Positions 2,403 through 29,870 of a DNA stretch of 64,000 nt are shown here, piece after piece. Within the stretch, counting starts at the first letter, position 1; the number at the start of each line of letters is the position of its first letter. The stretch covers positions 1 to 64,000 of the forward strand of contig CACDWF010000007.1 in the NCBI GenBank assembly GCA_902556405.1, read 5' to 3'. Source of the DNA: an uncultured Alphaproteobacteria bacterium. GTDB taxonomy: Bacteria; Pseudomonadota; Alphaproteobacteria; Rhodobacterales; Rhodobacteraceae. The position numbers and the translations under genes are program-made. A model generated the notes under the pieces. The model was not told where the DNA came from. It searched no databases and saw only the letters and a list, made by a program, of their open reading frames with translations.

Positions 2403-3860
<1,458 letters not shown>

Positions 3861-3877
3861 TTATTCCTCCTTTTTAC

Positions 3878-4936: not shown

Positions 4937-4969
4937 TTTTTTTCCCTATTTTTTATCTTTTGCCTTATT

Positions 4970-5845: not shown

Positions 5846-5851
5846 TTATTA

Positions 5852-9965: not shown

Positions 9966-11216
9966 ATGAAATATTCTGGGTTTAAAGTATTATGGGAGGG
10001 ATTAAAAGGTAACACCGGTTGGAAACCCTTGTGGAGAAAACCTGATCCCAAAAAGAATTATGACATAATAATCGTTGGTGGAGGTGGGCACGGCTTGGCA
10101 ACGGCTTATTATCTCGCAGAGAAATTTAAAATTACTAATATTGCAGTTGTTGAGAAAGGCTGGCTTGGATCTGGAAACATAGGTAGGAACACTACAATTA
10201 TAAGATCAAACTACTTATTGCCTCAAAACCAACCTTTTTATGAATTCTCCCTAAAACTTTGGGAAAATTTAGAGCAAGAGTTAAACTACAATTCAATGGT
10301 AAGTCAAAGAGGTGTTTTAAATATTTTTCATTCAGATAGTCAACGTGATGCTTTTGTAAGGCGTGGAAATGCGATGCTTATGTCAGGGGCCGATGCCTCA
10401 CTATTAGGAGTAGACGCTCTAAAAAAGCTAGTCCCTTTTTTAGATTTTCAGAATTCAAGGTTTCCCATTAAGGGTGGTTTATGGCAGCCAAGAGGAGGAA
10501 CGGTAAGGCATGATGCAGTAGCATGGGGTTATGCTAAAGAGGCAGATTCGCGTGGCGTTGATATAATAGAAAATTGTGAGACAACTAATTTTTTGATCAA
10601 AAATGGACGATGCTATGGAGTTGAAACTACAAAAGGAGTAATTAAAAGCAAAAAGGTTGGGGTTTGTGTTGCTGGTTCATCTAGTCAAGTTATGGGAAAA
10701 ATTGGAATAAACCTTCCTATAGAGAGTCATGTTTTGCAAGCATTTGTATCAGAAGGTTTGAAACCAGTAATTCCTGGAGTAATTACTTTTGGAGCTGGAC
10801 ATTTTTATGTGAGCCAATCTAATAAGGGCGGATTAGTTTTTGGAGGTGACATTGATGGCTATAATTCCTATGCACAACGCGGTAACCTACCCGTGATAGA
10901 GGATGTGTGTGAAGGCGGAGTGGCTCTAATGCCGATGATTGGGCGTGCTAGGCTGCTGAGAACTTGGGGAGGAATAATGGATATGTCTATGGACGGATCC
11001 CCAATTATTGATAAGACCAAAATAAGAAACCTATATTTCAACGGAGGATGGTGCTACGGGGGGTTCAAAGCGACTCCCGCAAGTGGTTTTTGCTATGCGC
11101 ATCTTTTGGCTACGGACAAACCGCACAACGATGCCAAAGATTTTTTGTTCAATAGATTTGAAAGAGGTAGGTTAATAGACGAAAAAGGCCAAGGCAACCA
11201 ACCTAACTTGCATTAA
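9966..11216 (+). CDS. soxB: Sarcosine oxidase beta subunit
   Basis: 416 aa; YDIIIVGGGGHGLATAYYLAE, GNIGRNTTIIRSNYLL, FNGGWCYGGFKATPASG. Confidence 0.95.
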   Translation: MKYSGFKVLWEGLKGNTGWKPLWRKPDPKKNYDIIIVGGGGHGLATAYYLAEKFKITNIAVVEKGWLGSGNIGRNTTIIRSNYLLPQNQPFYEFSLKLWENLEQELNYNSMVSQRGVLNIFHSDSQRDAFVRRGNAMLMSGADASLLGVDALKKLVPFLDFQNSRFPIKGGLWQPRGGTVRHDAVAWGYAKEADSRGVDIIENCETTNFLIKNGRCYGVETTKGVIKSKKVGVCVAGSSSQVMGKIGINLPIESHVLQAFVSEGLKPVIPGVITFGAGHFYVSQSNKGGLVFGGDIDGYNSYAQRGNLPVIEDVCEGGVALMPMIGRARLLRTWGGIMDMSMDGSPIIDKTKIRNLYFNGGWCYGGFKATPASGFCYAHLLATDKPHNDAKDFLFNRFERGRLIDEKGQGNQPNLH

Positions 11217-11230
11217 AATGAGGGACAGAA

Positions 11231-11503
11231 ATGCTTATTGACCATCCATTACTAGGCCCTAGGGACGCATCCGAATTCATTTATATGGGTGATGCAAAAT
11301 TACTTAATAGACCAAATTGGAAGAGTCAAAATTCTAAGACTAAATTTTTAGATTATGGCTATTTACGAAAAAATCCTGCAGGGGTACATAAGGAACTTTG
11401 GTATCACGAACAGGGTGATAGATCTTGGCTTGTAGTCACAAGAAATACTGTAACGCATGAAATTTTAAAAGTTGAACTTGCTCGAGACACTAAAGGAAAA
11501 TAA
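11231..11503 (+). CDS. soxD: Sarcosine oxidase delta subunit
   Basis: 90 aa; HPLLGPRDASEFIYMGDA, NPAGVHKELWYHEQGDRSWLVVTRNT. Confidence 0.95.
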   Translation: MLIDHPLLGPRDASEFIYMGDAKLLNRPNWKSQNSKTKFLDYGYLRKNPAGVHKELWYHEQGDRSWLVVTRNTVTHEILKVELARDTKGK

Positions 11504-11509
11504 AAGTAA

Positions 11510-14446
11510 ATGCGAAATAGTTCACATCCAATAACAAATAAACAAAAACTATCTTTTACTTTTAATGGGAAAAAATATTTCGGCTATAAAGGTGATACGC
11601 TAGCTTCCGCACTTATTGCCAACAACGTTAAAATTGTTGGAAGATCTTTCAAATATCATCGTCCAAGAGGCATTTTTAGCGCCGGATCTGAGGAACCAAA
11701 TGCATTGATAGAGCTTGGCGATGGCCCATATAAAGAACCGAATACCAGAGCTACTAACATCGAGCTTTTTGATGGTCTTGAAGGCTCGAGTCAAAATTTT
11801 TTAGGGTCAGTTAATTTTGACTTCATGGCAATAAATGATTTGCTGAAAAATTTCATAGGTGCAGGTTTCTATTACAAGACGTTTATGTGGCCCAGGAGGT
11901 TTTGGGAGAAATTATATGAACCAATTATTAGAAGAGCCGCAGGGTTAGGGAAATTATCACTACAGGCGGATCCTTCACAGTATGACAAGGGGTATCTCCA
12001 TTGTGACTTTCTAATAATTGGATCTGGTATCTCGGGCTTAATGTCTGCCCTTCTATTGGCAGAAACTGGAGGTGAAGTTTTAATTGTCGAGGAAGATTTT
12101 GTTTTGGGTGGAAGACTCAATTCAGAAAGGTCAATTATAAACGGTAATCAATCTTCAAATTGGATTCGTCAGGCGGTAAAAAAATTAAAAAGTTTAAAAA
12201 ATGTTCGAATCTTAAATAGAACCACGGTCTTTGCCGCTTTTGATCATGGTATATTTGCAGCCATTGAGAAAAAAACTGATCATATATTAGAAAAAAGTTC
12301 CAAACCAAGACAGATAAATTGGAAGATATATACCAAGCTCTGCATCTTAGCGTCTGGAGCTATTGAGCGCTCTATTGCATTTCCTCAAAACGATAGACCC
12401 GGTATAATGTTGGCAGGATCGGTAAGAACTTATGCGAATAGGTTTGGTGCCTACTACGGACAAAAAATTGCAATCTACACAAATAATGATGATGGTTGGA
12501 GGACTGCTGACGATCTAAAAAATATGGGACTTGAAATTAAGGCGGTAATTGACACTCGCAAAGGGATTGAAGCGCTGTCTTCAACCATTCCATCTTACCT
12601 AGGACAAACAATTACAAAAACATATGGAAGAAAAGGTATCAAGGCAATTAAGTTAAGTTCGGGATCAAAATTGAATGTTGATTGTCTTGCAGTATCAGGA
12701 GGATGGAGTTCCAACATTCATTTGACATGCCACAAGAGAGGCAAACCCGTTTGGGATAACAATTTCAAGAACTTTCTATCGGGGGGTAATGGGCAAAAAG
12801 ATAAAATAATTCCTGTGGGAGCCGCGAGAGGAATATTTGAAATCCAAAATATCATTTCAGATACCAATAGAGTTATTTTATCTTTGATTAAAAAACTTAG
12901 TTTGAGCATGCCTAACCGCATTACACTAACTAGCTCGAAAGAGCAGTATAGCTGCTCACTTGATCTTGTTAGTCGTTCCGATCCCTCTAACTCCTTCATA
13001 GATCTGCAAAACGATGTTACCCAAAAAGATATAGAGTTAAGCTTCAAAGAGGGCTTTAAAAGTGTGGAACATTTAAAGCGATACTCCACGTTGGGTATGG
13101 CAACCGATCAGGGGAAAACATCTAATATCCTTGGGTTAGCGTCTATGGCTAAATTGAAGGGAACGAATATTTCTGAAGTAGGCACTACTATTTTTAGACC
13201 ACCATATGTACCTGTAGCTATATCGGCATTTGCAGGACGTTCTAGGGGAAAGGACTTTAGACCGACAAGGTTGACCCCATCACATAATGTAGCCTCCAAA
13301 CGAAATGCAGTTTTTGTAGAGACAGGTAACTGGTTGCGAGCTCAATGGTTTCCAGAAAAGGGAGAGAAATTTTGGCGAGAAAGTGTCGATAGAGAGGTCA
13401 TACAGACGAGAAATTCAGTTGGAATTTGTGATGTAACTACACTTGGAAAAATCGATATTCAAGGAAAAGACTGCTCAGAGTTTTTAAATTTTGTGTACAC
13501 AAATGCCTTTGCTAAGTTACCTATCAATAGAGTACGTTACGGATTAATGTTAAGAGAAGATGGCGTTGCATATGATGATGGGACTACTGCAAGGTTAGGC
13601 GAAAATCATTTTATAATGACGACTACGACTGCTAATGCCCCTTTAGTTCTACGAAATTTAGAATTTGTTCGACAGTGCCTCCTTCCAAATCTAGATGTTC
13701 ATTTAATTTCTACTACAGATTCTTGGGCCCAGTATTCGGTCGCAGGACCAAACTCTCGCAGATTATTGCAAAAGATTGTAGATAAACCAAAAGATATAAC
13801 TAATGAAAATTTTCCATTCATGGCTTGTCGTGAGCTCACCATCTGTGGCGGTATTATGGCAAGACTTTTTCGAATTTCCTTCTCTGGAGAATTAGCTTAT
13901 GAAATTGCAGTTCCTACACAATATGGAAATGCTTTATTTGACGCCCTTCTTTCGGAAGGCCAAGAGTTTAATGCCGTTCCTTATGGTACTGAAGCATTAG
14001 GAGTTATGCGAATAGAAAAAGGTCATGTAGCTGGTAATGAAATAAATGGTCAGACAACCGCACAGAACCTCGGCTTATCAAGGATGATATCAAAAAAAGC
14101 AGACAGCATAGGAAACATTCTATCAGAGAGAGAAGGCTTCAATAGATCTGATATCGCAACATTTTCAGGCTTTAGGCCTGTTCAACGCAACCAAAAGCTT
14201 GAAGCTGGATCACACCTGATTTCAGTAGGGAAAAAACCCACAATGGAAAATGATGAGGGTTGGTTATCTTCAGTAGCATTCTCTCCAACACTTGGTCACT
14301 ACATAGCTTTAGGGTTTATTAAACGCGGTGAAACAAGAATTGGAGAAAAGGTGTGTGCTGTAAATCTACTTCAAAACAAAACCACGGAAGTAGAGATTGT
14401 TTCGCCTCACTTTATCGATCCGGAAGGGGATAAACAACGTGGCTAA
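11510..14446 (+). CDS. soxA: Sarcosine oxidase alpha subunit
   Basis: 978 aa; SFTFNGKKYFGYKGDTLASALIANN, FKYHRPRGIFSAGSEEPNALIE, C-terminal GcvT-like domain. Confidence 0.96.
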   Translation: MRNSSHPITNKQKLSFTFNGKKYFGYKGDTLASALIANNVKIVGRSFKYHRPRGIFSAGSEEPNALIELGDGPYKEPNTRATNIELFDGLEGSSQNFLGSVNFDFMAINDLLKNFIGAGFYYKTFMWPRRFWEKLYEPIIRRAAGLGKLSLQADPSQYDKGYLHCDFLIIGSGISGLMSALLLAETGGEVLIVEEDFVLGGRLNSERSIINGNQSSNWIRQAVKKLKSLKNVRILNRTTVFAAFDHGIFAAIEKKTDHILEKSSKPRQINWKIYTKLCILASGAIERSIAFPQNDRPGIMLAGSVRTYANRFGAYYGQKIAIYTNNDDGWRTADDLKNMGLEIKAVIDTRKGIEALSSTIPSYLGQTITKTYGRKGIKAIKLSSGSKLNVDCLAVSGGWSSNIHLTCHKRGKPVWDNNFKNFLSGGNGQKDKIIPVGAARGIFEIQNIISDTNRVILSLIKKLSLSMPNRITLTSSKEQYSCSLDLVSRSDPSNSFIDLQNDVTQKDIELSFKEGFKSVEHLKRYSTLGMATDQGKTSNILGLASMAKLKGTNISEVGTTIFRPPYVPVAISAFAGRSRGKDFRPTRLTPSHNVASKRNAVFVETGNWLRAQWFPEKGEKFWRESVDREVIQTRNSVGICDVTTLGKIDIQGKDCSEFLNFVYTNAFAKLPINRVRYGLMLREDGVAYDDGTTARLGENHFIMTTTTANAPLVLRNLEFVRQCLLPNLDVHLISTTDSWAQYSVAGPNSRRLLQKIVDKPKDITNENFPFMACRELTICGGIMARLFRISFSGELAYEIAVPTQYGNALFDALLSEGQEFNAVPYGTEALGVMRIEKGHVAGNEINGQTTAQNLGLSRMISKKADSIGNILSEREGFNRSDIATFSGFRPVQRNQKLEAGSHLISVGKKPTMENDEGWLSSVAFSPTLGHYIALGFIKRGETRIGEKVCAVNLLQNKTTEVEIVSPHFIDPEGDKQRG

Positions 14447-14999
14447 ACTAGATCTTAAAATAAAAAAGCCACTAGATGGTTATTCCAAGGTCATAAACCA
14501 AATAAAAATTGCCGAGTATCAATTCGATAATCTCATATCACTTGCAATTCCGTTAAAAACCGAGCGAAAGTGTAAACTAAATTTCAAGAAATCCTTAGGG
14601 GAGCCAATGCCAAACATTGAAAAGTCAATAATTGATAAAAGTGGTATTCTAGGTTTTAGAATTGGCCTTGACTTACTTTTGGTCTGTAATCCATCGCATT
14701 CGTCATTTGTAAAAAAAACTGTCCCGTCGTTAAAGCAAGCTTTTTACATAACTGACCAAACCGGAGGGTGGTGTGGGGTTAGAGTTGATGGGGATAGAGT
14801 CATTGAGATGTTAGAACGAATTTGTCCTCTAAATTTATCCCAAAAAATTTTTGCTATCGGAGATGTTAAAAGAACTATTATGGATCACTTAAATGTGATT
14901 ATATTTAGAGAGACAGAAAAAAAATTTATATTGTTCTCACCAAGCTCTTCTTCTGGTTCCTTTCTTAAATCCATTGAGATATCTTCGAGAAATATTTAA
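14439..14999 (+). CDS. soxG: Sarcosine oxidase gamma subunit
   Basis: Follows soxA with 8-bp overlap from likely GTG start at 14439 (track start 14397 probably too early); DQTGGWCGVRVDGDRVIEMLERICPLNL. Confidence 0.85.
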   Translation: MAKLDLKIKKPLDGYSKVINQIKIAEYQFDNLISLAIPLKTERKCKLNFKKSLGEPMPNIEKSIIDKSGILGFRIGLDLLLVCNPSHSSFVKKTVPSLKQAFYITDQTGGWCGVRVDGDRVIEMLERICPLNLSQKIFAIGDVKRTIMDHLNVIIFRETEKKFILFSPSSSSGSFLKSIEISSRNI

Positions 15000-15015: not shown

Positions 15016-16692
15016 ATGAAAGTCAAATCTGATATCGAAATTGCAAGAGAGGCACAGAAACTTCCTATAAAAGAAGTAGCAAAAAAATTAGGTATAGAAG
15101 ACGAAGAATTAATTCCCTTTGGGCATGATAAAGCAAAAGTATCAGATCAATTTATTAGATCAGTAAAAAATAATCAAAACGGTAAGCTCATTTTAGTAAC
15201 AGCGGTAAATCCGACACCCGCCGGTGAAGGTAAGACTACGACTACGGTAGGCCTAGGTGATGGACTTTGTGCTTTGGGAAAGAGAGCGGCTATATGCATT
15301 CGCGAAGCATCTTTAGGACCTTGCTTTGGCATGAAAGGGGGAGCTGCTGGCGGAGGGTTAGCGCAAGTTGTGCCTATGGAAGAAATGAATTTACACTTCA
15401 CTGGAGACTTTCACGCAATTACTAGCGCTCATAACCTTTTAGCAGCAATGATAGACAACCATATATATTGGGGTAACGAGCAAAATATTGACCTCCGAAG
15501 AGTTGTTTGGCGACGGGTGATGGATATGAATGATAGGGCACTTAGAGACGTAGTCACAAGCCTAGGAGGTGTCGCTAATGGATATCCAAAGCAATCAGGG
15601 TTTGATATCACTGTAGCTTCTGAAGTAATGGCAATTTTATGTTTAGCTAATGATCTTTCAGATCTCAGGAAAAGATTAGGTGAAATAATCGTTGCGTATA
15701 GAAAAGATCGAACTCCAGTTTTTTGCAAAGATATTAAAGCAGATGGCGCAATGACCGTACTCTTACAACAAGCTATGCAACCCAATATCGTTCAAACACT
15801 AGAAAATAATCCTGCATTTGTCCATGGAGGACCTTTTGCTAATATTGCCCACGGTTGCAATTCTGTTATCGCTACAAAAACCGCTCTAAAGATAGCTAAC
15901 TATGTAGTAACCGAAGCGGGTTTTGGAGCCGACCTCGGTGCCGAAAAATTTGTTAATATAAAGTGTAGGAAAGCTGGGATAAAGCCCGACGCTGCTGTAA
16001 TCGTTGCCACAGTAAGGTCGATGAAAATGAACGGTGGCATAGTTTCCAAAAATGATCTGAGTACGGAAAATATCGAAGCTGTGCAACGAGGTTGTGCAAA
16101 CCTTGGAAGACATATTGAAAATGTAAAATCATTTGGAATACCAGTCGTTGTTGCAATAAACCACTTTGTTAGCGATACAAATGCCGAGATTGAGGCGCTC
16201 AGACGGTATGTAGCTGATAAGGGGACTGAAGCTTTTGTCTGTAAGCATTGGGCAGAAGGTTCTACCGGAATCCTTCCTCTCGCGAATAAGGTTGTTGAGA
16301 TTGCAGAAAACAAAAGTAAATTTGTTTACACATACAAAGACGATTTGTCTCTGATTGAAAAAATCGAAAGAGTCGCTAAAAAAATATATAGAGCTGATGA
16401 AGTTCTTGCGAACAAGTCAATTAGGGATCAGCTACAGTTATGGGAAAATGATGGTTATGGTGATCTCCCTATTTGTATGGCGAAAACCCAATATAGCTTT
16501 ACTACAGATCCTAACAGAAGGGGTGCACCAAACGGGCACTCAATACCAATAAGAGAAGTAAGACTGTCGGCAGGGGCTGGTTTCATTGTTGTTATTTGTG
16601 GAGAAGTTATGACTATGCCTGGACTTCCCAAAGTTCCAAGCGCGGAGGCCATAATGCTCAATAAAAAAGGCGACGTTGAGGGCTTATTTTAA
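15016..16692 (+). CDS. fhs: Formate--tetrahydrofolate ligase
   Basis: 558 aa; [51 protein letters not shown]. Confidence 0.97.
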
Positions 16693-16708
16693 AAGGTCGA
16701 GGAAAATA

Positions 16709-17602
16709 ATGAATGAAATTATTGACGGAAAAAAGTTTTCACAAACACTACGCGCCAAAGTAAAAAATTATGTCGATGTCATAAAGGAAAAACATGGGGT
16801 AACTCCAGGTTTAGCAGTAATACTTGTTGGAGAGGACCCCGCGAGCCAGGTATATGTGAGAAATAAAGGAAAGCAAACCTTAGAAGTTGGCATGAATTCA
16901 TATGAGCATAAGCTTGATGCATCGACTTCTTCCGATGTATTACTCAACCTCATAGAAAAATTAAATGACGACGTGAATGTTCATGGGATTTTATGTCAAC
17001 TACCTTTACCCGACCACTTGAATGAAAAAGAGGTGATTAATTCTATCGATCCAAAAAAAGATGTGGATGGATTTCATATATCAAATGTTGGTCTTCTAAA
17101 TACGGGTCAAAAGTCAATGATCCCCTGTACACCATTAGGGTGTTTATTATTACTTAAAGACAGGCTAGGAGACCTTTCAGGTAAAAATGCAGTGGTCGTA
17201 GGAAGATCAAATATAGTTGGTAAGCCGATGGCTAATTTACTTTTACAAGAAAATTGTACTGTAACCATAGCTCACTCTCGAACAGAGAATATAGAAACTA
17301 TATGTGCGCAAGCTGATATTATCGTGGCTGCGGTAGGGAGGCCTGAGATGATTAAAAAAGAATGGGTAAAGCCTGGAGCTACAGTCATAGATGTTGGTAT
17401 AAACCGAGTAATAAAAAATATTGATGGACACGAAAAAACTACTTTGGTGGGTGACGTTTGTTTTAATGATATGGCTGGTTTAGTAGCCGGCGTTACACCT
17501 GTACCCGGTGGAGTAGGACCAATGACTATAGCTTGTCTTTTAGCAAATACTGTTACTGCATGCTACAGATCACAAGACCTTTATGACCCAGAGTTTACTT
17601 AA
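16709..17602 (+). CDS. folD: Bifunctional methylene-THF dehydrogenase / methenyl-THF cyclohydrolase
   Basis: [70 protein letters not shown]; likely ATG 16709. Confidence 0.97.
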
Positions 17603-17976: not shown

Positions 17977-18816
17977 ATGAAAAAAAAGATATTGCTAACA
18001 GGCGCAGGAGGTAGATTGGGTTCTTATCTTAGAGAGCCACTTTCAAACATCTGCAGTACACTTATTTCGACTGACATAAAAAAAGATATTGGAAAACTCA
18101 ATGAAAATGAAAAATATTTTTCAGCCGATTTATCAAATTTTGATCAAATATGTGACCTAACAAAAGACGTTTCGCTTATCTGCCATTTTGGCGCTTTAGT
18201 AGACGAAGTGCCATTTAACGATATGCTAGGTGCTAATTTCATTGGCTCCTATAACATTTGGGAAGCAGCTCGCCAAAATAAGTGTACTAGGGTAGTTTAT
18301 GCAAGTTCTATTCATGCAGTCGGCATGTATAAAAGAACAAAAACATTAAGGCCAAAGACTGCACATCGAGCTGATGGTTTTTATGGGCTATCAAAGTGTT
18401 TTACTGAAAATTTGGCCCGGATGTATTACGATAAATGCGGAGTTGAAGCGGTATGCTTAAGAATTGCTACATGTTCACCAGTAACAACGCAAAGAAGTTT
18501 GTCGAGTTGGCTTTCTTATGGTGACTTGGTTCAATTGGTTATGAAAGCAATTGATACTTCACACACCGGTTATTCGGTTATTTATGGAGTATCAGACAAT
18601 GATCGTTCTAATTTGAGCAACATAGAAGCAGGCCATATCGGTTTCAAACCCAAAGATAATGCTGAGATTTACGCAAATAAAATCTTCGCAGATGACCTAA
18701 CAGACGAATTAGCAGACGAAGGGAACAAATTGCATGGTGGTCCTTTTGCATCCACTGATCTAGGAGTTAGCGCAATGGATAAAATGAAAATAGTTTATGC
18801 GCATAAAGGGGATTAA
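17977..18816 (+). CDS. NAD-dependent epimerase/dehydratase family, uronate dehydrogenase-like
   Basis: LLTGAGGRLGSYLREPL, HFGALVDEVPFNDMLGANFIGSYNIWEAARQN, YASSIHAVGMY, YGLSKCFTENLARMY. Confidence 0.85.
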   Translation: MKKKILLTGAGGRLGSYLREPLSNICSTLISTDIKKDIGKLNENEKYFSADLSNFDQICDLTKDVSLICHFGALVDEVPFNDMLGANFIGSYNIWEAARQNKCTRVVYASSIHAVGMYKRTKTLRPKTAHRADGFYGLSKCFTENLARMYYDKCGVEAVCLRIATCSPVTTQRSLSSWLSYGDLVQLVMKAIDTSHTGYSVIYGVSDNDRSNLSNIEAGHIGFKPKDNAEIYANKIFADDLTDELADEGNKLHGGPFASTDLGVSAMDKMKIVYAHKGD

Positions 18817-18820
18817 CCAG

Positions 18821-20566
18821 ATGAAAGATAATAATATGCTTCGAGGAGGACAGCTTTTAGCGAAATCTTTTAAAGAGAAAGGAATAGAACATGTGTTTAC
18901 ACTCGCAGGTGGGTTTTGTAACCCTGCACTTGAGGGTTTCATGAATCATCAAATACCCGTGATAAATTGCCCGCATGAACAAATTGCGGGCCATTTGGCA
19001 GACGGTCATACGAGACTTTCAAGGAAACCCTCTGTTTGTCTAGTTGGACCAGAGGGTTTTGCGAATGCGATACCTGCCATGATGGAGTCTTGGGGGGAAC
19101 GATCTCCTGTAATTTTTGTTACAGGCTCATCCACACTGAAAAAGCAAGGTGCTGGAGGATTTAAGGAAATAGATGACGTTTCTATCGCAAGACCACTTAC
19201 AAAATACAGTGCATCAATAACAGATGGAAATAGAATTCCCGAGTTCGTGGATAGAGCGTGGAGGATAGCGACAAGCGGTTATCCAGGACCGGTTCATCTA
19301 AGTATGCCAGTAGACATAATGTTTTCTTCCTTTGATGAAAGCGCCTCAGATATGGAGCGTCCATTTACTAGAAAAGAACCAAAGACTTATAAAGCATGGC
19401 CTGAACCCTCAGCACTAAATGAGATAATTGACATTATAAAGTCTTCAAAAAAACCCATAATTATCGGCGGACATGGGATATGGTGGTCAAAAAATGAAGA
19501 CCTGTTAAAGCAAGTTGGTGATGAAATTAAAATACCAATTTTTAATGTGCCATATCACCAAAAATTATTAAATGAAAATTGCAAAGCCTTTCTAGGGCTT
19601 GCCGATGTGCATCAGTACCATCCTTCAAAGTTTGCTTTCAATGAATCTGATTGCATAATAATGGTTGGAGGTCGCTTGGATAATCAAATGAATTTCGGCA
19701 ATCCACCATTATTTCCTGCAAGTTCGAGGTTAATATGTGTCAACGGTTCGCATGAAGAAATAGAATTTAATCGGGCGGCAGACCATTTGCTTTTAAGTGA
19801 TCCTGGGGCATTTTTTGAAGGTCTACTTGCATCATTTAACAGCAGTAAATTCTCTATAGAAAAAGATTGGTTAGTTAAAAATATTGAGGAGAGAAAAAAA
19901 TGGGTGACTGCGTCGGTAAATAATCTTGTTGAAACGACGAATTCTCCAGCATGGAGTGGTGGGAAAATTCACCCTTTAGAGCTTTCTCTTTCGGTACAAA
20001 AGTGTATGACAGACCAAGATATCTTAGTTTTTGATGGAGGTAATACACACTTTTGGTCAGAAATTGCTGTTAATATAATGGCCTCTAATGGATTAGCTCT
20101 TTCTCAAATAATGCACCCAGGTTCCTATTCCATGTTAGGCGTTGGAGTATCATTTGCATTGTCGGCAAAGCGGCTCAATAAAGAAAAGACGATTGTATTA
20201 ATTTCTGGAGATGGTGCTTTCCTTAGTGGGGGTTTATCCATTGAGACAGCCTTTCAAGAAAACCTGCCGATTGTTATAATCATCGATAACAATGGTGGTT
20301 TAGACTGTATATCGCAACAACAGGAAAGATTGTTCAAGGATGGTTCTCATTTTGCAACAGATTTCAGAGATATACCATTTCACGGAATGTTTGAGGGAAT
20401 GGGGGGTTATGGAGAGCTGGTAACTCACAAAGATGAGATTCAAGGAGCTGTGAGGCGAGCAATAGACAGCAGGAAACCTGCTTGTGTTAATGTAAAAACA
20501 AAAGGCGTTATCAGCCCAATTGTTGCAGCAACAAGCGATAAAAGAGATAAGGCATCTATAGAATAA
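18821..20566 (+). CDS. Thiamine-diphosphate-dependent enzyme of the acetolactate synthase/decarboxylase superfamily, substrate unknown
   Basis: HVFTLAGGFCNPALEGFM..CPHEQIAGHLADGHTRLSRKPSVCLVGPEGF; GDGAFLSGGLSIETAFQENLPIVIIIDNNG ThDP motif; likely start ATG 18821. Confidence 0.88.
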   Translation: MKDNNMLRGGQLLAKSFKEKGIEHVFTLAGGFCNPALEGFMNHQIPVINCPHEQIAGHLADGHTRLSRKPSVCLVGPEGFANAIPAMMESWGERSPVIFVTGSSTLKKQGAGGFKEIDDVSIARPLTKYSASITDGNRIPEFVDRAWRIATSGYPGPVHLSMPVDIMFSSFDESASDMERPFTRKEPKTYKAWPEPSALNEIIDIIKSSKKPIIIGGHGIWWSKNEDLLKQVGDEIKIPIFNVPYHQKLLNENCKAFLGLADVHQYHPSKFAFNESDCIIMVGGRLDNQMNFGNPPLFPASSRLICVNGSHEEIEFNRAADHLLLSDPGAFFEGLLASFNSSKFSIEKDWLVKNIEERKKWVTASVNNLVETTNSPAWSGGKIHPLELSLSVQKCMTDQDILVFDGGNTHFWSEIAVNIMASNGLALSQIMHPGSYSMLGVGVSFALSAKRLNKEKTIVLISGDGAFLSGGLSIETAFQENLPIVIIIDNNGGLDCISQQQERLFKDGSHFATDFRDIPFHGMFEGMGGYGELVTHKDEIQGAVRRAIDSRKPACVNVKTKGVISPIVAATSDKRDKASIE

Positions 20567-20568
20567 TA

Positions 20569-20910
20569 ATGCCTTCAATAAGTACACATGTATTAAATTC
20601 TGAAAACGGCACTCATGTTGCTGGTTTAACAGTTACCCTTACACATATTGGGCCAGATGGGGCAAAAAAGACAATGTTTTCAGAAAAAACTGATGCAGGG
20701 GGACGCCTTTTAGAAGACTTTAACTTTCCCCTCACAAGCAATGAAATTTTTGAGATTGAATTTAAACTATCAGATATTCATGTGAAGAAAAAAGGTATAT
20801 ACTGTAGAGATATAATTTTTAGGGTATCTTTCAATTCAGAAAATGAAAAATTTCATATTCCCATTATCGTATCTCAAAACGGCGCCTCTTCTTGGTGGAC
20901 GGGAGAATAA
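20569..20910 (+). CDS. Transthyretin-like / 5-hydroxyisourate hydrolase family protein with divergent C-terminus
   Basis: 113 aa; STHVLNSENGTHVAGLTVTL, TDAGGRLLEDF, FHIPIIVSQNGASSWWTGE. H7, R46, H96 match family catalytic positions; terminal YRGS replaced by WTGE. Confidence 0.82.
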   Translation: MPSISTHVLNSENGTHVAGLTVTLTHIGPDGAKKTMFSEKTDAGGRLLEDFNFPLTSNEIFEIEFKLSDIHVKKKGIYCRDIIFRVSFNSENEKFHIPIIVSQNGASSWWTGE

Positions 20911-20912
20911 TA

Positions 20913-22040
20913 ATGAATATTCAAAATAAGCTAAATTTCTCTAGAAGGATCAGAAGAACACCTTTTACCGCCTCTGTCGAAAAGTATGGAGTAACAGGTT
21001 TCTCCGTTGTGAACCACACATTACTTCCAAAGTCATTTCAAAATTCAATTGAAGATGATTATTTGCACCTACAAAAACATGCTCAAATTTGGGATGTTGG
21101 TTGTCAAAGGCAAGTTGAAATTAAAGGTAAAGACGCACTTAAACTTATTGAGTTAATGACGCCAAGATCAATCTCAGCACTTCAACCAGGAAAATGTCTT
21201 TACATTCCCTTGACTGATGAAAATGGTGGCGTAATCAATGATCCTATTCTTATCAAAATAAGTGCCGATCATTTCTATCTATCCGTTGCAGACTCAGATG
21301 TGCTGTTGTGGGCTAGAGGGTTAGCTATTGGTTTTGGCTTAAACGTAAGAATAAGGGAGCCTGATGTGTGGCCTTTGGCAGTACAAGGACCAAAAGCTGC
21401 CGATGTTTTGGCCAAAGTTTTTGGTAAGCGGATATATTCAATTAAAAAATTCAATTTCGACTATTTTCCACTTGATGGCTCTTCTCAACTAATAGCCAAA
21501 ACCGGTTACTCTAGAATTGGTGGTTTTGAAATATATCTGTCTCGACCAGAACTCGGTTCATCTCTATGGGAAACAATTTTGGAAGCTGGTAGATCAGAAA
21601 ACATAAGGCCAGGATCTCCAAACATAATAGATAGAGTTGAAGCAGGATTATTATCCTTTGGTAATGAAATGACCGTGGAGAACACACCACTGGAATGTAA
21701 CATGGATAAGTTCTTGGATATAAATAAAAAAGCAGATTATATTGGGAAAAAAGTTCTCCAGCGGCAGATCAGATATGGCATTAAAAGACGTATAAGGGGT
21801 GTTATTTATAATGGGCCTAAACTTCCAACAATATCAAGACCTTTACAAGTTTTTGATATAGATAAAAGAACTATAGTCGGAAGCTTAACTTCAGGAGCAT
21901 TCTCACCACATTTTAAGAGAAATATTGGGGTTGGTATGATCAAATATGGATACTGGGATAATAACAAAGAAATATTGGTTAATATCGCTGGTCAGGAGTT
22001 TAGAGAAGGATTAATCAAAGACCTTCCTTTAATTCAATGA
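20913..22040 (+). CDS. GcvT-family THF-dependent methyltransferase, DmdA-like
   Basis: SRRIRRTPFTASVEKYGVTGFSVVNHTLLPKSF..DDYLHLQKHAQIWDVGCQRQVEIKGKDALKLIELMTPRSIS..LSVADSDVLLWARGLA..SPHFKRNIGVGMI closely follows the remembered DMSP demethylase pattern; likely ATG 20913. Confidence 0.8.
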   Translation: MNIQNKLNFSRRIRRTPFTASVEKYGVTGFSVVNHTLLPKSFQNSIEDDYLHLQKHAQIWDVGCQRQVEIKGKDALKLIELMTPRSISALQPGKCLYIPLTDENGGVINDPILIKISADHFYLSVADSDVLLWARGLAIGFGLNVRIREPDVWPLAVQGPKAADVLAKVFGKRIYSIKKFNFDYFPLDGSSQLIAKTGYSRIGGFEIYLSRPELGSSLWETILEAGRSENIRPGSPNIIDRVEAGLLSFGNEMTVENTPLECNMDKFLDINKKADYIGKKVLQRQIRYGIKRRIRGVIYNGPKLPTISRPLQVFDIDKRTIVGSLTSGAFSPHFKRNIGVGMIKYGYWDNNKEILVNIAGQEFREGLIKDLPLIQ

Positions 22041-22047
22041 GGTAGGA

Positions 22048-22953
22048 ATGGCTCTGGCTATTAATAAAAATGTATTTATTACCTGTGCTGTGACTGGTTC
22101 TGGAAGTTCACAAGATAAAAGTCGAGAAGTACCAAGATCGCCAAAAGAAATTGCAGATAGTGCAATTGAAGCCGCTAAAGCTGGAGCGGCTATTGTACAT
22201 TGTCATGTAAGAGATCCCGATACCGGCATACCAAGTCGTCGAGTTGATCTCTATGAAGAAGTAACAAAAAGGATTAGGGACTCCGAAACGGACGTCGTTT
22301 TGAACTTAACTACCGGTATGGGAGGCGATATTTATCTTGGTCTCGACGCTGAAAACCCTCTGCCACTTAAAGAACCAGAAACAGATATGATAGGGGCGTC
22401 GGAAAGAATAAAGCATCTTGTTACATGTAAGCCAGAAATCTGCACTTTAGATTGTGGCACAATGAATTTTGCTGAGGATAACTATGTAATGACCAACACG
22501 CCGGGAATGCTAATGGCGATGGCTTCAAAGATCACCAATTTAGGCATACTTCCTGAGATTGAAGTTTTTGATACAGGACATCTGTGGCTGGCAAAAAAAC
22601 TTGTTAACGAAGGTCTGATAAGAGATCCGGTTCTTTTACAGCTTTGTATGGGTATACCGTGGGGCGCACCAAACGATATAAATACGTTTATGTCTTTAGT
22701 GAATAATATTCCAAAAGACTGGACTTGGTCTGCATTTTCCATAGGGCAATTTCAGATCCCTTATGTTGCAATGGCTACTCTGGCAGGAGGAAATGTCAGA
22801 GTGGGGTTGGAAGATAATATTTGGCTGGAAAAAGGACGGTTAGCAAAGAATTACCAGTTGGTTGAAAAAGCTGTAAATGTCATCGAAAACTCCGGCAGTA
22901 AGGTCATGTCACCGAAAGAAGTTCGTGACAAGCTTCGTTTGAAAAAACAATAA
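22048..22953 (+). CDS. BKACE family (3-keto-5-aminohexanoate cleavage-like) enzyme, probable 3-dehydrocarnitine cleavage enzyme
   Basis: NVFITCAVTGSGSSQDKSREVPRSPKEIADSAIEAAKAGAAIVHCHVRDPDTGIPSRRVDLYEEV; next to carnitine dehydrogenase-like gene. Confidence 0.92.
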   Translation: MALAINKNVFITCAVTGSGSSQDKSREVPRSPKEIADSAIEAAKAGAAIVHCHVRDPDTGIPSRRVDLYEEVTKRIRDSETDVVLNLTTGMGGDIYLGLDAENPLPLKEPETDMIGASERIKHLVTCKPEICTLDCGTMNFAEDNYVMTNTPGMLMAMASKITNLGILPEIEVFDTGHLWLAKKLVNEGLIRDPVLLQLCMGIPWGAPNDINTFMSLVNNIPKDWTWSAFSIGQFQIPYVAMATLAGGNVRVGLEDNIWLEKGRLAKNYQLVEKAVNVIENSGSKVMSPKEVRDKLRLKKQ

Positions 22954-22955
22954 TT

Positions 22956-24422
22956 ATGAAAAATTTAAGTGTGACATGTATAGGAGCTGGCGTAATAGGG
23001 TCTGGTTGGGCTGCCCGCTTATTAGTTAATGGAATAAATGTAAGCGTTTTTGATAAAAGCCCAGAAAGCTACAATAGAACACGATTATCCGTTGAAAGGG
23101 CTAAAAAATATTTCTCTCAATTAACAAAGGCCCCTTTAAGAGAAATGGGCAGTCTTACTTTTGACAAGTCTTTGGAAGATGCTCTAAAAAAGTCCACTTA
23201 TATAATTGAAAGTCTTCCAGAAAATTTACAATTGAAGCATAAACTTTATAAAGAAATTGAGCACATTTCAAATAATTCAATTATTTTGTCGTCTACTTCA
23301 GGTTTCAAGCCCACTGACCTTCAAAAGCATATGAAAAATCCTCAGAGTTTGCTCGTTACACACCCTTTCAACCCAGTGTATCTGATGCCTTTGGTTGAGC
23401 TAGTTCCAGGCCAAGAAAGAGATCAGAGAATTGTTGATGATGTGCACCATTTATTGGAATATGTCGGAATGGTACCAATAATAATTAAAAAAGAAATAGA
23501 TGCCTTTGTCGCTGACAGAATGCTAGAGGCGATGTGGCGTGAAGCATTGTGGCTTATAAAAGATGATATTTGCACTACTAAGGAGCTAGACGATATTATC
23601 ACGTCTAGCTTTGGAATACGATTTGCTCAAATGGGAATGTTTGAAAGTTACCGTATTGCTGGAGGAGATAAAGGCATGCGTCATTTCCTTGATCAATTTG
23701 GTCCTGCACTAAAATGGCCTTGGTCCAGATTAACAGATGTACCAGAGTTTAATTCTGATTTAATAGATAAAATTTGTTCTCAATCAGATGCTCAATCAGA
23801 TATGTATAGCATCTCCGAGTTAGAAGATATTAGGGACAAAAACTTGGTTGAATTACAGAAAGCTCTTCGCAACAACCGTTGGGGATCTGGACGAATACTA
23901 GCGAGCTATGAGAAAGATCTTTTCGATGAACAATCAAAAGAGGCAGAAAAAGCTAGTGGAAAAATAAGTAGTGACCTGCTTATTACCTATACAAAAACGA
24001 TACCTCCTGAATGGGCAGATTATAATGGCCATATGACAGAATATCGTTATCTCAACTGTTTTGGCGATGCCTCAGATGCTGTAATGCTCCATATAGGCTG
24101 TGATAAAGCCTATATCGAAGCTGGTAATTCCTATTTTACCGTTGAGACAAATATTAGGCACCTAAACGAGCTTAAGGTAGGGCAAGAAGTATATATAGAA
24201 ACTAAAGTTTTAAAGGGAACTGAGAAAAAATTGCACGTTTTTCATATGTTGAAAAATACAGAAGGAGAACTTTTTGCTACCGGTGAACATCTTCTTCTAC
24301 ACGTTTCTTTAAAAACTAGAAAAACTTGTCCAGCAAGTAAACCTCTTATCATAAAATTGATAGAACTTCAAAAGCAGCATCAAGAAACAAGTGTTCCATC
24401 AGAGCCGAAAATAATTGTTTAG
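22956..24422 (+). CDS. L-carnitine dehydrogenase-like 3-hydroxyacyl dehydrogenase fused to a C-terminal hotdog thioesterase
   Basis: 488 aa; CIGAGVIGSGWAARLLVNG, VTHPFNPVYLMPLVELVPG, DAFVADRMLEAMWREALWL; C-term ITYTKTIPPEWADYNGHMTEYRYLNCFGDASDAVM (betainyl-CoA thioesterase-type). Confidence 0.9.
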   Translation: MKNLSVTCIGAGVIGSGWAARLLVNGINVSVFDKSPESYNRTRLSVERAKKYFSQLTKAPLREMGSLTFDKSLEDALKKSTYIIESLPENLQLKHKLYKEIEHISNNSIILSSTSGFKPTDLQKHMKNPQSLLVTHPFNPVYLMPLVELVPGQERDQRIVDDVHHLLEYVGMVPIIIKKEIDAFVADRMLEAMWREALWLIKDDICTTKELDDIITSSFGIRFAQMGMFESYRIAGGDKGMRHFLDQFGPALKWPWSRLTDVPEFNSDLIDKICSQSDAQSDMYSISELEDIRDKNLVELQKALRNNRWGSGRILASYEKDLFDEQSKEAEKASGKISSDLLITYTKTIPPEWADYNGHMTEYRYLNCFGDASDAVMLHIGCDKAYIEAGNSYFTVETNIRHLNELKVGQEVYIETKVLKGTEKKLHVFHMLKNTEGELFATGEHLLLHVSLKTRKTCPASKPLIIKLIELQKQHQETSVPSEPKIIV

Positions 24423-25020: not shown

Positions 25021-25825
25021 TGCTTTCTCCTTTTTTTAACCAAGGCGCAGGTTTCTTTTCAAAAAAGGCCTTAATACCTTGTTTACCCTCCTCTGACTCC
25101 CAACTGCTAGCAAGAATATTTGTTGTTATCTCGAAAAAATTTTCTGCTTTCTCCCCTGTAAGACTTTTCAATAGCTCTTTTGATTTTTTAATTGCGTCTG
25201 GTGAACATTTTAATATGTTATCGATTTCCTGCAATTTTAATAACTGAATTTCCTTATTATCCTTACAAACATAGTGAATAAGACCCATCTTGTAGGCCAA
25301 TTCAGAATCAAAAATCTTACCACTGAAAAATACGTTACGACCGTAACTTTCTCCTAATTTCTTAATTACGAATGGTCCAATTGTCGCGGGAATCAACCCT
25401 AGCCTTGTTTCTGTAAGGCCAAACTTTGAAGCTTGAGAAACAATTACCGTGTCAGATACGGAGATTAGGCCTAGGCCTCCACCAAATGCACTTCCAGAGA
25501 CTATAGAAATCAATGGCATCGGAAGACTATTCATTGTCGCCAACATTTTTGCCAGCGCTCTAGCCTCAACCAATTTTTCCTTTTTAGATTTTTTTTCTTG
25601 CTCTTTCATCCAATTTAAATCTCCTCCAGCGCAAAATGTTTTCCCATTTGCTTGAAGAAAAACTAGTCGAATACTGTCTTGCGTTTTAACATACTGGCCA
25701 GCTTCTTCTAACTCATCAATCATTTTTCTACTCATAGCGTTATGCTTATCGGGTCTATTCAAAGTAATTTCACACACGCCTTGAGGATTGATATTTACTT
25801 CAATCTCTTTGAATTTATTTTTCAC
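25010..25825 (-). CDS. liuC: Enoyl-CoA hydratase family, probable 3-methylglutaconyl-CoA hydratase
   Basis: ITLNRPDKHNAMSRKMIDEL, NGKTFCAGGDLNWMKEQ (CAGGDLxWM typical of methylglutaconyl-CoA hydratases); liu genes nearby. Confidence 0.8.
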   Translation of the reverse strand: MKNKFKEIEVNINPQGVCEITLNRPDKHNAMSRKMIDELEEAGQYVKTQDSIRLVFLQANGKTFCAGGDLNWMKEQEKKSKKEKLVEARALAKMLATMNSLPMPLISIVSGSAFGGGLGLISVSDTVIVSQASKFGLTETRLGLIPATIGPFVIKKLGESYGRNVFFSGKIFDSELAYKMGLIHYVCKDNKEIQLLKLQEIDNILKCSPDAIKKSKELLKSLTGEKAENFFEITTNILASSWESEEGKQGIKAFFEKKPAPWLKKGESNGQ

Positions 25826-26430
25826 GCTTTAAGATTTCCCATTTTCATAATTTCACCTTTTACAGCATCCACACCTTTTTCTTCCTTCAAATTTGTAAGT
25901 AAGACAGGTTTACCATTTCTTTTAGCAATAGCATCTTGAAGCATTTGGTCTACAGAAACATCTACATATTCCGCTAAATCAATTTTATTAATAATTAAAA
26001 GGTCAGATCTCATTATTGCAGGCCCCCCTTTTCTTGGTATTTCTTCTCCCATACAGACATCAATCATAAAGATCGTATAATCTACAAGTTCTGGACTGAA
26101 AGTTGCAGAGAGATTATCTCCTCCACTTTCCAATAATATAAGATCTAGATCAGGAAATTTAGCGGATAGCTTATCTACGGCTTGTAAGTTAATAGACGCG
26201 TCCTCTCTGATTGCTGTATGGGGACATCCACCCGTTTCTACTGCTAATATCCTTTCCGAGTTGATCACCTGTTTTTTCATTAATATTTCAGCATCCTCTT
26301 TAGTGTATATGTCATTTGTAATAACAGCCATTGATAGGGATTCTGAAAAGACCTTACATAAGCTAGCTGTAAGGCTAGTTTTACCAGCTCCAACTGGTCC
26401 ACCGAGACCAACTCTAAAGGCATCTCCCAT
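25822..26430 (-). CDS. ureG: Urease accessory GTPase UreG
   Basis: VGLGGPVGAGKTSLTASLCK, ESGGDNLSATFSPELVD, IINKIDLAEYV. Confidence 0.97.
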   Translation of the reverse strand: MGDAFRVGLGGPVGAGKTSLTASLCKVFSESLSMAVITNDIYTKEDAEILMKKQVINSERILAVETGGCPHTAIREDASINLQAVDKLSAKFPDLDLILLESGGDNLSATFSPELVDYTIFMIDVCMGEEIPRKGGPAIMRSDLLIINKIDLAEYVDVSVDQMLQDAIAKRNGKPVLLTNLKEEKGVDAVKGEIMKMGNLKA

Positions 26431-26442
26431 CTCAAAACTCCC

Positions 26443-27069
26443 CTAAGACTTAAATACTTTTCCTTGAAATTCTTCATGCAATAGTGTGCACGTATCGGTC
26501 AAATAACAAGAGGAAAATAAATCCTTGTCCCCAGATACGAGCACTTTTCGTGATATCTCATTTATTTTTTCGAAAAGATTTTTCAAAATATTTGTTGATC
26601 TTTTATGGCCTAAAGGTAGGAGGCGCTGAGCAGCGGCTATCAAATTACTTATATTCGATTGCAAGAATAAAGGCACTAATTCCTCTATTTTTAATTTATG
26701 TTTTTTCGCTGCGGTGCCAAGAGCAATAGGATAGGGAAGACCCAACTGGGTATCGCTAGCTTTGGCAAAATTATCTCCAGTCATAACTTGCTCATTAAGT
26801 TTTAAGGCAGAACAAGAAAAAGCCAAACATAACTCTGTTAAATCATCTAAATCTTTATCTGTCGAGATTTGATAAGCCAGCTTTAAGAATATTGCGTCAT
26901 TCCTTAAAAAACCATATTCTAGATTATTTTCAATCCACACAACTAAATCAGCTTCATTTTTAACCATCGATTGACTAACAGCATACTCAAGCCCCTGTGA
27001 AAAATTAAAGCTCCCTGTAGGAAAGCTCGGTGAAAGCCATTGAAACATTAATTGGTTTTTTCTATACAT
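26443..27069 (-). CDS. ureF: Urease accessory protein UreF
   Basis: LMFQWLSPSFPTGSFNFSQGLEYAV; operon position. Confidence 0.95.
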   Translation of the reverse strand: MYRKNQLMFQWLSPSFPTGSFNFSQGLEYAVSQSMVKNEADLVVWIENNLEYGFLRNDAIFLKLAYQISTDKDLDDLTELCLAFSCSALKLNEQVMTGDNFAKASDTQLGLPYPIALGTAAKKHKLKIEELVPLFLQSNISNLIAAAQRLLPLGHKRSTNILKNLFEKINEISRKVLVSGDKDLFSSCYLTDTCTLLHEEFQGKVFKS

Positions 27070-27081
27070 AATAGTCCAGAA

Positions 27082-27528
27082 TTAGTGAGTATGGGTAAAG
27101 GTTCGACCTACCCCATACGCGCCTGAGAGGGGTGTGAAGCAATCTTCAAAATATGAAACTTTACAGTTTAGTTTTTCAAGCATATCTGCAATTACCTTAT
27201 CTTCTCTTAATATAACAGCGTCGTTACTGATAGCACAATTTAAATGCCGATTGCCAATATGCCATATAGCTTTCATTAGATCGATCGTGTTTTTCGTTTC
27301 TACACGCATAAGTGCTTCTTTAGCGGCTAATACTTTTATCTTTTTTTTACTTTTTAAAATTAATGTACCATTAACCGGTAATTCAGTTGCTTTATCCAAT
27401 GATAAAAAAAACTCATAACCACTATCCGAAACAAGTTTTATTTTTCGTTTAAATCGTGCATCAAAATCTAGAGAAATAGTATCATTAAACTCTAAACTTT
27501 TCTCTGTGACTTCTTCTACTGTATCCAT
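27082..27528 (-). CDS. ureE: Urease accessory protein UreE
   Basis: AIWHIGNRHLNCAISNDAVILREDKVIADML, C-terminal FTHTH; probable ATG at 27528 (track start 27579 would overlap ureC by 50 bp). Confidence 0.93.
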   Translation of the reverse strand: MDTVEEVTEKSLEFNDTISLDFDARFKRKIKLVSDSGYEFFLSLDKATELPVNGTLILKSKKKIKVLAAKEALMRVETKNTIDLMKAIWHIGNRHLNCAISNDAVILREDKVIADMLEKLNCKVSYFEDCFTPLSGAYGVGRTFTHTH

Positions 27529-27529
27529 A

Positions 27530-29239
27530 TCAATATAAAAAATATCGCTGTGCCATAGGTAATTCTTTAGCGGGCTCACAAGTTATTAATTCTCCATCTA
27601 GCCGTACTTCATAAGTTTCAGGATCCACCTCAATCTCTGGACATAGATCGTTCAGCTTCATACTTTTTTTGGATATATTTCTTGTATTCTCTATAGGAAC
27701 AATTTTTTTCCTTAAAGCAAGCTCATCTAGGCCTTTATTTTCACTTGCCGATTGAGAAACAAATATGATTGAATTTGTCTCCATTGACCTTCCATACGCA
27801 CCGAACATCGGTCTACTATAGACCGGTTGAGGAGTTGGGATAGACGCGTTGGGATCTCCCATTTGAGCACAGGTAATAACACCACCTATCAGTACCATTT
27901 CAGGCTTAACACCAAAAAAAGCTGTATTCCACAAAACGAAGTCAGCTCTTTTTCCAATTTCTATACTGCCTATATGATTTGACATACCATGTGCTATCGC
28001 TGGATTAATGGTATATTTCGCTATATATCTTTTTATGCGTAGATTGTCATTCTCACCCTTCTCCTCGGACAACCTTCCTCTCTGCTTTTTCATTTTGTCG
28101 GCTGTTTGCCATGTTCGGATAATAACTTCTCCAACGCGGCCCATTGCTTGGCTATCAGAAGCAATAATAGACATAGCACCAACATCATGAAGTATATCTT
28201 CTGCTGCAATTGTTTCTTTTCTAATCCTGCTTTCTGCAAACGCCACATCCTCAGGTATAGATTTGTCAAGGTGATGACATACCATTAACATATCCAGATG
28301 TTCTTCAATAGTATTGACGGTATATGGTCTGGTCGGGTTGGTCGAGGAGGGAATAACATTTTCTTCTCCAGCAAGCTTAATAATATCCGGCGCGTGTCCA
28401 CCCCCAGCTCCCTCAGTATGGAAAGCATGTATTGTTCGTCCCCCAATCGCTTTAATAGTATTTTCTACAAATCCACTCTCATTTAGTGTATCGGTATGAA
28501 TCATTACTTGCACATCTAATTCGTCAGCTACCTTTAAACAGCAATCAATAGCTCCTGGCGTAGTGCCCCAGTCCTCATGAAGCTTGAGAGAAGAAGCGCC
28601 TGCCCTGACTTGTTCCCTTAGAGCCTCGGGTAGACTTGCATTCCCTTTCCCAGCGAAAGATAAATTCATAGGAAAGGCATCGGCTGATTGCAGCATTTTC
28701 CCAATGTTCCAAGGACCTGGGGTGCATGTGGTTGCAAGTGTTCCATGCGCAGGACCAGTTCCGCCCCCTAACATGGTAGTGAGTCCCGAATGAAGTGCAT
28801 CTTCAATTTGTTGGGGACAAATAAAATGAATATGAGCATCCATTCCACCAGCTGTCAGAATTTTTCCTTCCCCAGCGATGACCTCTGTTGCTGGACCAAC
28901 TATTATATTTACTCCACTTTGAATGTCTGGGTTTCCCGCTTTTCCTATAGAGTGGATCCTTCCATCTTTTACACCGATATCTGCTTTGTATATTCCTAAG
29001 TAATCGATTACTAGTGCATTAGTTACGACTAAATCAACTGCTCCATCTGCTCTCGTAACTTGGCTCTGTCCCATTCCATCTCTTATGACTTTACCACCAC
29101 CGAACTTTACTTCCTCTCCATATACAGTGTAGTCGTGTTCAACCTCTGCAAATAGTTCAGTATCAGCCAATCTCACTCTGTCTCCAGTTGTTGGCCCAAA
29201 AATGCTTGCATACTTTTCTCTAGAAACTTTCTGTGCCAT
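27530..29239 (-). CDS. ureC: Urease alpha subunit
   Basis: 569 aa; [30 protein letters not shown] (carbamylated Lys), [49 protein letters not shown]. Confidence 0.98.
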
Positions 29240-29544
29240 TATAAATCACCCATTATTTTTTTATTAAACCCATATACTTTTCTGTCCCCATGAAAAGAAA
29301 TTAAGTTTACAGTTTTAGTCTGGCCTGGTTCAAATCGTATCGCCGTTCCAGAGATAATATCAAGTCTCATACCTTTTGATTTCTCTCTAGAAAATTTTAA
29401 TGCTTCATTAGTCTCAAAAAAATGATAGTGACTTCCTACTTGAATAGGCCGGTCTCCAGTGTTGGACACCTCCACCTCTATAGATTCTGAGCCTGAGTTA
29501 ATCTCTAACTCCTTATCTGATATAATTATCTCTCCTGGTATCAT
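29239..29544 (-). CDS. ureB: Urease beta subunit
   Basis: [37 protein letters not shown]. Confidence 0.97.
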
Positions 29545-29552
29545 ATTTTCCT

Positions 29553-29855
29553 CTATCTGATTGGGTGATGAACTGTCACTAATTTAGTGCCATCTGGAAA
29601 AGTTGCTTCAACTTGAACTTCATGTATCATTTCGGCCACCCCTTCCATACAATCCTCTTTGGAAATTATGGTTCCCCCAGCTGACATAAGGTCCGCTACG
29701 GACCGTCCGTCTCTTGCTCCTTCCATTACATAATTTGTAATGAGAGCTATAGCTTCCGGGTGGTTTAGTTTTACTCCCCTATTTTTACGGTCAGTTGCAA
29801 CCATTGCTGCTACTGCTATCATCAGTTTATCTTTTTCACGAGGCGACAGATTCAT
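29553..29855 (-). CDS. ureA: Urease gamma subunit
   Basis: [48 protein letters not shown]. Confidence 0.97.
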
Positions 29856-29870
29856 TTATATCTCCCTTAT

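Follow-up and report, generated by a model that had tools for sequence, protein, structure and literature searches.

We have found that the DmdA-like gene located at positions 20913..22040 (+ strand) of a 64,000 nucleotide window (the whole stretch of DNA analysed) belongs to a clade of its own, sister to the DMSP demethylases, and has constant enzyme-gene neighbours; the protein therefore probably demethylates a compound other than DMSP. The interpretation that we favour, and consider reasonably probable, is that of a THF-dependent demethylase, a paralogue of DmdA, acting within a conserved catabolic cassette on a substrate that is most likely a non-DMSP onium compound, probably of the quaternary-ammonium kind. 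Its mode of action is very probably like that of DmdA. The host (G000) is a member of the Rhodobacteraceae with a genome of 2.19 Mb, 80% complete, and the named relatives in its genus are marine single-cell genomes and MAGs, e.g., AG-422-M03 and MED-G56.

The ORF is uninterrupted and codes for 375 amino acids, from an ATG at 20913 to a stop ending at 22040. An alternative in-frame TTG at 20892 overlaps the preceding gene and the ATG, 2 nt past the upstream stop, is the better start. The original prediction had recognized a DmdA pattern along the whole protein and all the stretches that it quoted are present. By sequence the top PDB match is the DmdA of P. ubique (3tfh, phmmer E = 5e-101, ~40% identity over the full length), and the NCBIfam DMSP-demethylase equivalog gives 467 bits vs. 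a cut-off of 410, while the GcvT equivalog stays at 149 bits, below its cut-off of 235.85. The predicted structure (pLDDT 74, medium confidence) also has 3tfh as top match (Foldseek E 3.4e-42, TM 0.82), so that at the level of the model the protein has the GcvT/DmdA fold, with the three GcvT-like domains of DmdA; LigM appears among the fold relatives in the structure comparison.

We analyzed a maximum-likelihood tree of 55 rows (35 cassette proteins, 15 canonical DmdAs), without a GcvT outgroup because a first tree rooted with GcvT had a far too long outgroup branch. The canonical side contained P. ubique and P. inhibens, the only two named anchors, plus acuI-adjacent Roseobacter copies and a second copy found in the host genome, the published environmental clades A–E being outside the tree. 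The cassette proteins, including the focal one, were split from the rest by a 98/94 branch and the canonical DmdAs by a 98/92 branch. A tree constrained to place the window genus with canonical DmdA was 29 lnL worse and was rejected (p-AU 0.0038). Since the clustering with characterized DmdAs that the original prediction had suggested looking for was found neither in the tree nor by the AU test, we have not classified the focal protein as a DmdA.

The second copy of the host (G000:C2:104382-105461) is a canonical DmdA, with the motifs WISIADSDV and TGWSKQGGFE and 493 bits to the DMSP-demethylase model. Likewise, a true DmdA, 70–82% identical to that of P. ubique, was present in 15 out of 15 cassette-bearing SAR11 genomes checked, and several lake or soil-type genomes (MAGs) carry the cassette type without a canonical DmdA. 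The canonical copies adjoin either acuI, the arrangement of R. pomeroyi (PMC3338564), or dmdD-dmdB. In P. inhibens DSM 17395 dmdA is carried by plasmid pPGA1_262, next to dmdD and a gene of the AMP-binding (dmdB) type, and the qRT-PCR primers published for the dmdA of this species (PMC12366255) map inside this dmdA copy. In the window operon neither acuI nor dmdBCD was recognized, in agreement with the original prediction as regards dmdBCD, and no dmdD-like gene was found in the 80%-complete host genome (best match 31% identity). A third DmdA-related clade was also detected, in L075, L079, L080, L082, L100 and L184 (pP88_b plasmid, P. inhibens), with the motifs FGFGTQIRKSPYF... and TGWSSELGYE; it scores 371 bits to the DMSP-demethylase model, under the cut-off, and is found in some cases on conjugative plasmids.

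Diagnostic positions (3tfh numbering) were counted over 79 cassette-clade proteins from outside the window genus, 15 sequences of the genus and 18 canonical DmdAs. V32 and K39 are present in all 79 and all 15, while the canonical proteins have Y32 without exception and either T (15) or A (3) at position 39. Both positions belong to a conserved stretch, [YV]NH-x-[LI]LP-x, and might line the substrate pocket. Y32V and T/A39K are cleaner markers of the clade than the two Trp to Tyr replacements that had been proposed before as a sign of altered function. These replacements had been read correctly (YLSVADSDV and TGYSRIGGFE) and are genuine departures from the P. ubique protein (W120 to Y, W197 to Y); it is their meaning that for the most part does not hold. 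Tyr197 is found in P. inhibens DmdA (SGYSKQGGFE), in the acuI-adjacent Roseobacter copies and in 13 of the 18 canonical sequences overall, and the P. inhibens case makes it a poor functional marker. Y120 (in the YLS motif) is confined to the window genus (15/15), with Trp in the other 79 cassette proteins and in the 18 canonical ones. The Trp described as contacting DMSP is W171 in PMC7487153, which we have taken as W197 of 3tfh. The folate-site residues are kept in the focal protein and in nearly all of the 79 proteins outside the genus (S126 in 78, E204 in 79, Y206 in 75); they correspond to S99, E178 and Y180 in the alignment of PMC7487153, by a mapping inferred from motif spacing.

These data bear directly on the alternative of an ordinary DMSP demethylase, a further DmdA clade whose cassette neighbors would be coincidental or would handle related sulfonium compounds. 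The common fold, the folate-site residues, the Tyr197 shared with P. inhibens DmdA and the DMSP-demethylase equivalog all speak for it, and because this equivalog is passed the pocket may still accept DMSP. However, a separate clade, the presence of a true DmdA in the host itself and in all the SAR11 genomes that were checked, the lack of acuI or dmdBCD alongside and of a dmdD-like gene in the host, the invariance of Y32V and T/A39K and the lake and soil-type MAGs with the cassette type and no canonical DmdA make it unlikely. Between the two options of the original prediction, a true DmdA clade or a paralogue with another substrate, the second is the one favored by the separate clade, the separate cassette and the coexistence with DmdA, although the Trp/Tyr argument that had been brought in its support is weak.

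Two features of the cassette were absent from the original prediction (as was the canonical DmdA elsewhere in the genome): a small HIUase/transthyretin-like gene (20569..20910, + strand) and a TPP-dependent enzyme as conserved partner (18797..20566, + strand), which profile searches assign to the acetolactate synthase / 2-hydroxyacyl-CoA lyase / benzaldehyde lyase type. Counting loci with sufficient upstream DNA, the TPP gene was found upstream of the DmdA paralogue in 68/68 cases outside the genus and in 29/29 inside. For the HIUase-like gene the figures were 64/68 by ORF calling, rising to 68/68 with tblastn, and again 29/29 in the genus. Outside the genus, 59 of 61 loci have an FMN 2-hydroxyacid oxidase (PF01070, 383 bits) ahead of this pair. 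None of the 29 loci inside the genus does, and there the slot is occupied by an SDR (NAD-dependent epimerase/dehydrogenase by profile searches, 17977..18816 in the window, + strand). Across classes the TPP enzyme is 64–70% identical to the window copy, a higher value than that of the methyltransferase (50–55%). The HIUase-like protein (113 aa) belongs to the transthyretin/HIUase family (Pfam PF00576, 46.9 bits) and the alignment shows the catalytic-type His7, Arg46 and His96. HIUases typically have the C-terminal tail YRGS. The neighbor found here differs from them in having WW[ST]x instead, and it scores 46.7 bits with the NCBIfam hydroxyisourate hydrolase model, under the cut-off of 87.45.

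The cassette is found in SAR11, Rhodobacteraceae, Hyphomicrobiales, Comamonadaceae and Gammaproteobacteria, i.e., in ocean, lake and soil-type bacteria, and its distribution is patchy. An even scan of Pseudomonadota with the TPP profile gave just 2 positives out of 399 genomes, and for this reason genomes were drawn by families; with the seeds counted, it was present in 10/147 Pelagibacteraceae and 6/385 Alphaproteobacteria, and in 2/201 and 2/274 genomes in two further draws. Of 397 genomes drawn, 17 (Rhodobacteraceae from outside the genus) have the methyltransferase at 50–55% identity. A plasmid search found no copy of the TPP enzyme, and a literature search found neither a description of the cassette nor a second, non-DMSP dmdA. 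Two loci (L191:8641-10728 and L192:8645-10728) have the TPP and HIUase-like genes without an adjoining DmdA paralogue; L191 has an asparaginase-like ORF upstream and L192 a GMC oxidoreductase-like ORF downstream.

In the window the SDR, TPP enzyme, HIUase-like protein and DmdA paralogue are followed, in a tight co-directional operon, by a BKACE (beta-keto acid cleavage enzyme, 22048..22953, PF05853 320 bits), probably the dehydrocarnitine cleavage enzyme CdhC, and by a carnitine 3-dehydrogenase fused to a thioesterase domain (CdhA-CdhB type, 22956..24422, 3HCDH_N plus 4HBT_2, NCBIfam PRK07531 645 bits vs. a cut-off of 592), both on the + strand. From the TPP gene on, the genes are separated by 2–7 nt (7 nt between the DmdA paralogue and the BKACE gene). 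Upstream, on the same strand, there is a C1 block that starts with sarcosine oxidase genes: soxB (9966..11216, TIGR01373 658 bits), a SoxD-like ORF of 90 aa read from the frame between soxB and soxA (11231..11503), soxA (11510..14446, TIGR01372 1225 bits) and a SoxG-like gene (14397..14999, TIGR01375 41 bits, under the cut-off of 144). It continues with genes read from the sequence as formate-tetrahydrofolate ligase (Fhs, 15016..16692) and FolD methylene-THF dehydrogenase/cyclohydrolase (16676..17602). The carnitine-type setting noticed in the original prediction is thus real, but it is a lineage-specific addition, limited to the window genus plus a small number of Rhodobacteraceae-like loci (L120 also has carnitine genes close to the cassette, and L119 a BKACE gene at a greater distance), and we have discarded it as the defining context of the clade.

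This setting would nevertheless suit a THF-dependent glycine betaine demethylase that completes a route from carnitine through glycine betaine and dimethylglycine to sarcosine, with the carnitine genes at no more than 7 nt in the same operon, SoxBDAG, Fhs and FolD upstream, and L119 and L120 as further cases. But the TPP enzyme, the HIUase-like protein and the 2-hydroxyacid oxidase would have no role in the carnitine route, most cassettes have no carnitine genes, and the host has two MttB homologues with high scores (688 and 683 bits to PF06253), this being the family that starts glycine betaine demethylation in R. pomeroyi (PMC12478193). We consider this explanation quite improbable. The MttB-family genes of the host are three in total (G000:C1:173139-174632, G000:C7:67294-68808, which is L197:3282-4823, and G000:C2:144065-145537), one of them ~3 kb past the window end.

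Other loci provide clues about the kind of substrate. In SAR11, Hyphomicrobiales, Comamonadaceae and Rhodobacteraceae the cassette is repeatedly accompanied by genes for Opp/Dpp-type ABC importers and by an S51 peptidase-like gene. Members of other methyl transfer families are also found: a second GcvT-fold protein in SAR11 loci and L187, a homocysteine S-methyltransferase (PF02574) in L150 and L187, and an MttB protein (PF06253, 386–387 bits) of one subfamily (52–54% identity) in L043, L048, L049, L188 and L189. MttB genes are common in these bacteria, with three in the host alone, which weakens this last clue, although it is a single subfamily that recurs in the loci. The neighborhood of demethylase-type families, importers and carnitine or sarcosine-oxidase genes suggests an onium substrate, more likely a quaternary-ammonium one. 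Directly downstream of the cassette, the Hyphomicrobiales loci have MTHFR-like and PurU genes, an adjacency consistent with oxidation of 5-methyl-THF. The second GcvT-fold protein (L143:3830-5050 and SAR11 equivalents, 407 aa, same operon) has a similarity between DmdA and TMAO demethylase and is under all curated cut-offs. Some neighbors are lineage-specific, such as a trans-3-hydroxyproline dehydratase (L049:14647-15675), an N-carbamoylputrescine amidase (L127:4794-5678), a formimidoylglutamate deiminase (L047:4768-6126) and an arginase-family protein (L060:11497-12438). An attempt to deduce the substrate from side genes of this kind (HutF, the AguB-like amidase, the arginase-family protein, trans-3-hydroxyproline dehydratase, asparaginase) gave no consistent picture and was abandoned.

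In the pathway that we propose the substrate, often imported through the nearby Opp/Dpp-type ABC transporter, would first undergo oxidation of an alcohol or 2-hydroxyacid (by the FMN oxidase, or the SDR in the window genus); a TPP-dependent decarboxylase or lyase would follow, and then an amide or ring hydrolysis by the HIUase-like protein. The demethylase, encoded by the last gene of the cassette, would take a methyl group from the activated (onium) compound and pass it to N5 of THF, in the way that DmdA handles DMSP. The resulting 5-methyl-THF might be oxidized by a C1 pathway, with Fhs and FolD encoded upstream in the window genus and the MTHFR-like and PurU proteins in Hyphomicrobiales. 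MtgBCD glycine betaine demethylation (PMC12478193) also delivers a catabolic onium methyl group to THF, but it depends on corrinoid and the MttB family, whereas the enzyme described here would be a corrinoid-free GcvT-fold protein (MttB genes being present in some loci).

Gonyol and dimethylsulfonioacetate are reported (PMC7221440) as phytoplankton zwitterions that interfere with DMSP cycling, and a demethylase of one of these sulfonium compounds, or of DMSHB, is another candidate, in which the 2-hydroxyacid oxidase and TPP enzyme would process a hydroxy-acid precursor. The DmdA ancestry favors a sulfonium. DMSHB being a 2-hydroxyacid and gonyol a 3-hydroxyacid, either the FMN oxidase/TPP pair or the CDH/BKACE pair would be suited to their chemistry. 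This leaves the HIUase-like hydrolase, the S51 peptidase-like protein and the Opp importer unaccounted for, the hosts include lake and soil types and the MttB-type neighbors indicate amines, all of which makes a sulfonium of this group very unlikely. Removal of an activated O-methyl (enol-ether or aryl), in the manner of the fold relative LigM, from a ring compound later opened by the HIUase-like protein and a ring-cleaving TPP enzyme can practically be dismissed: HIUases open rings and some TPP enzymes (IolD-type among others) cleave cyclic diones, but the idea is pure analogy, the loci share onium-demethylase families and a literature search that included mycosporine catabolism turned up no paper on the catabolism of such a compound.

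DmdA-like proteins other than DmdA have been considered before. The putative AMT SAR11_1265 of HTCC1062, which adjoins metF (Sun et al., 2011, PMC3160333), is also a DmdA-like SAR11 paralogue but, by its description, is set apart from the focal gene by the metF neighbor and the lack of a TPP/HIUase-like cassette. Hernandez et al. (2020, PMC7487153) share the idea of homologues with DmdA structure outside DmdA, and the available text of their paper does not describe this cassette. It is conceivable, and we put it forward tentatively, that the demethylase is of an undescribed type, THF-dependent but free of corrinoid and independent of oxygen, that its substrate is a quaternary ammonium (or other onium) compound, and that it takes part, along with the TPP lyase, the HIUase-like hydrolase and the 2-hydroxyacid oxidase, in a new catabolic pathway extending over SAR11, Rhodobacteraceae, Rhizobiales, Comamonadaceae and Gammaproteobacteria, the enzyme being now annotated as DMSP demethylase. 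With NCBIfam NF009133, the DMSP-demethylase equivalog, the cassette proteins score 467–554 bits (534–554 for the relatives), compared with 600 for P. inhibens DmdA and 692 for an acuI-type DmdA, and since these values exceed the cut-off public annotation will label them as DMSP demethylases. In ocean surveys the number of dmdA homologues serves to gauge DMSP demethylation and methanethiol formation. These counts would be inflated by a clade that passes the model but is located in another conserved pathway, side by side with true DmdA in SAR11. The cassette would also mark an uncharacterized pathway for a methylated compound, common to abundant ocean bacteria and freshwater bacteria.

Two other clusters were observed in the window. 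Urease and urease accessory genes adjoin the operon (25822-30668, minus strand, convergent) and this arrangement is kept across the genus. Near the window start (2403-6862) RuBisCO large subunit-like, aldolase, phosphoribulokinase-like and fructose-bisphosphatase-like ORFs were read from the sequence as a Calvin-cycle cluster.
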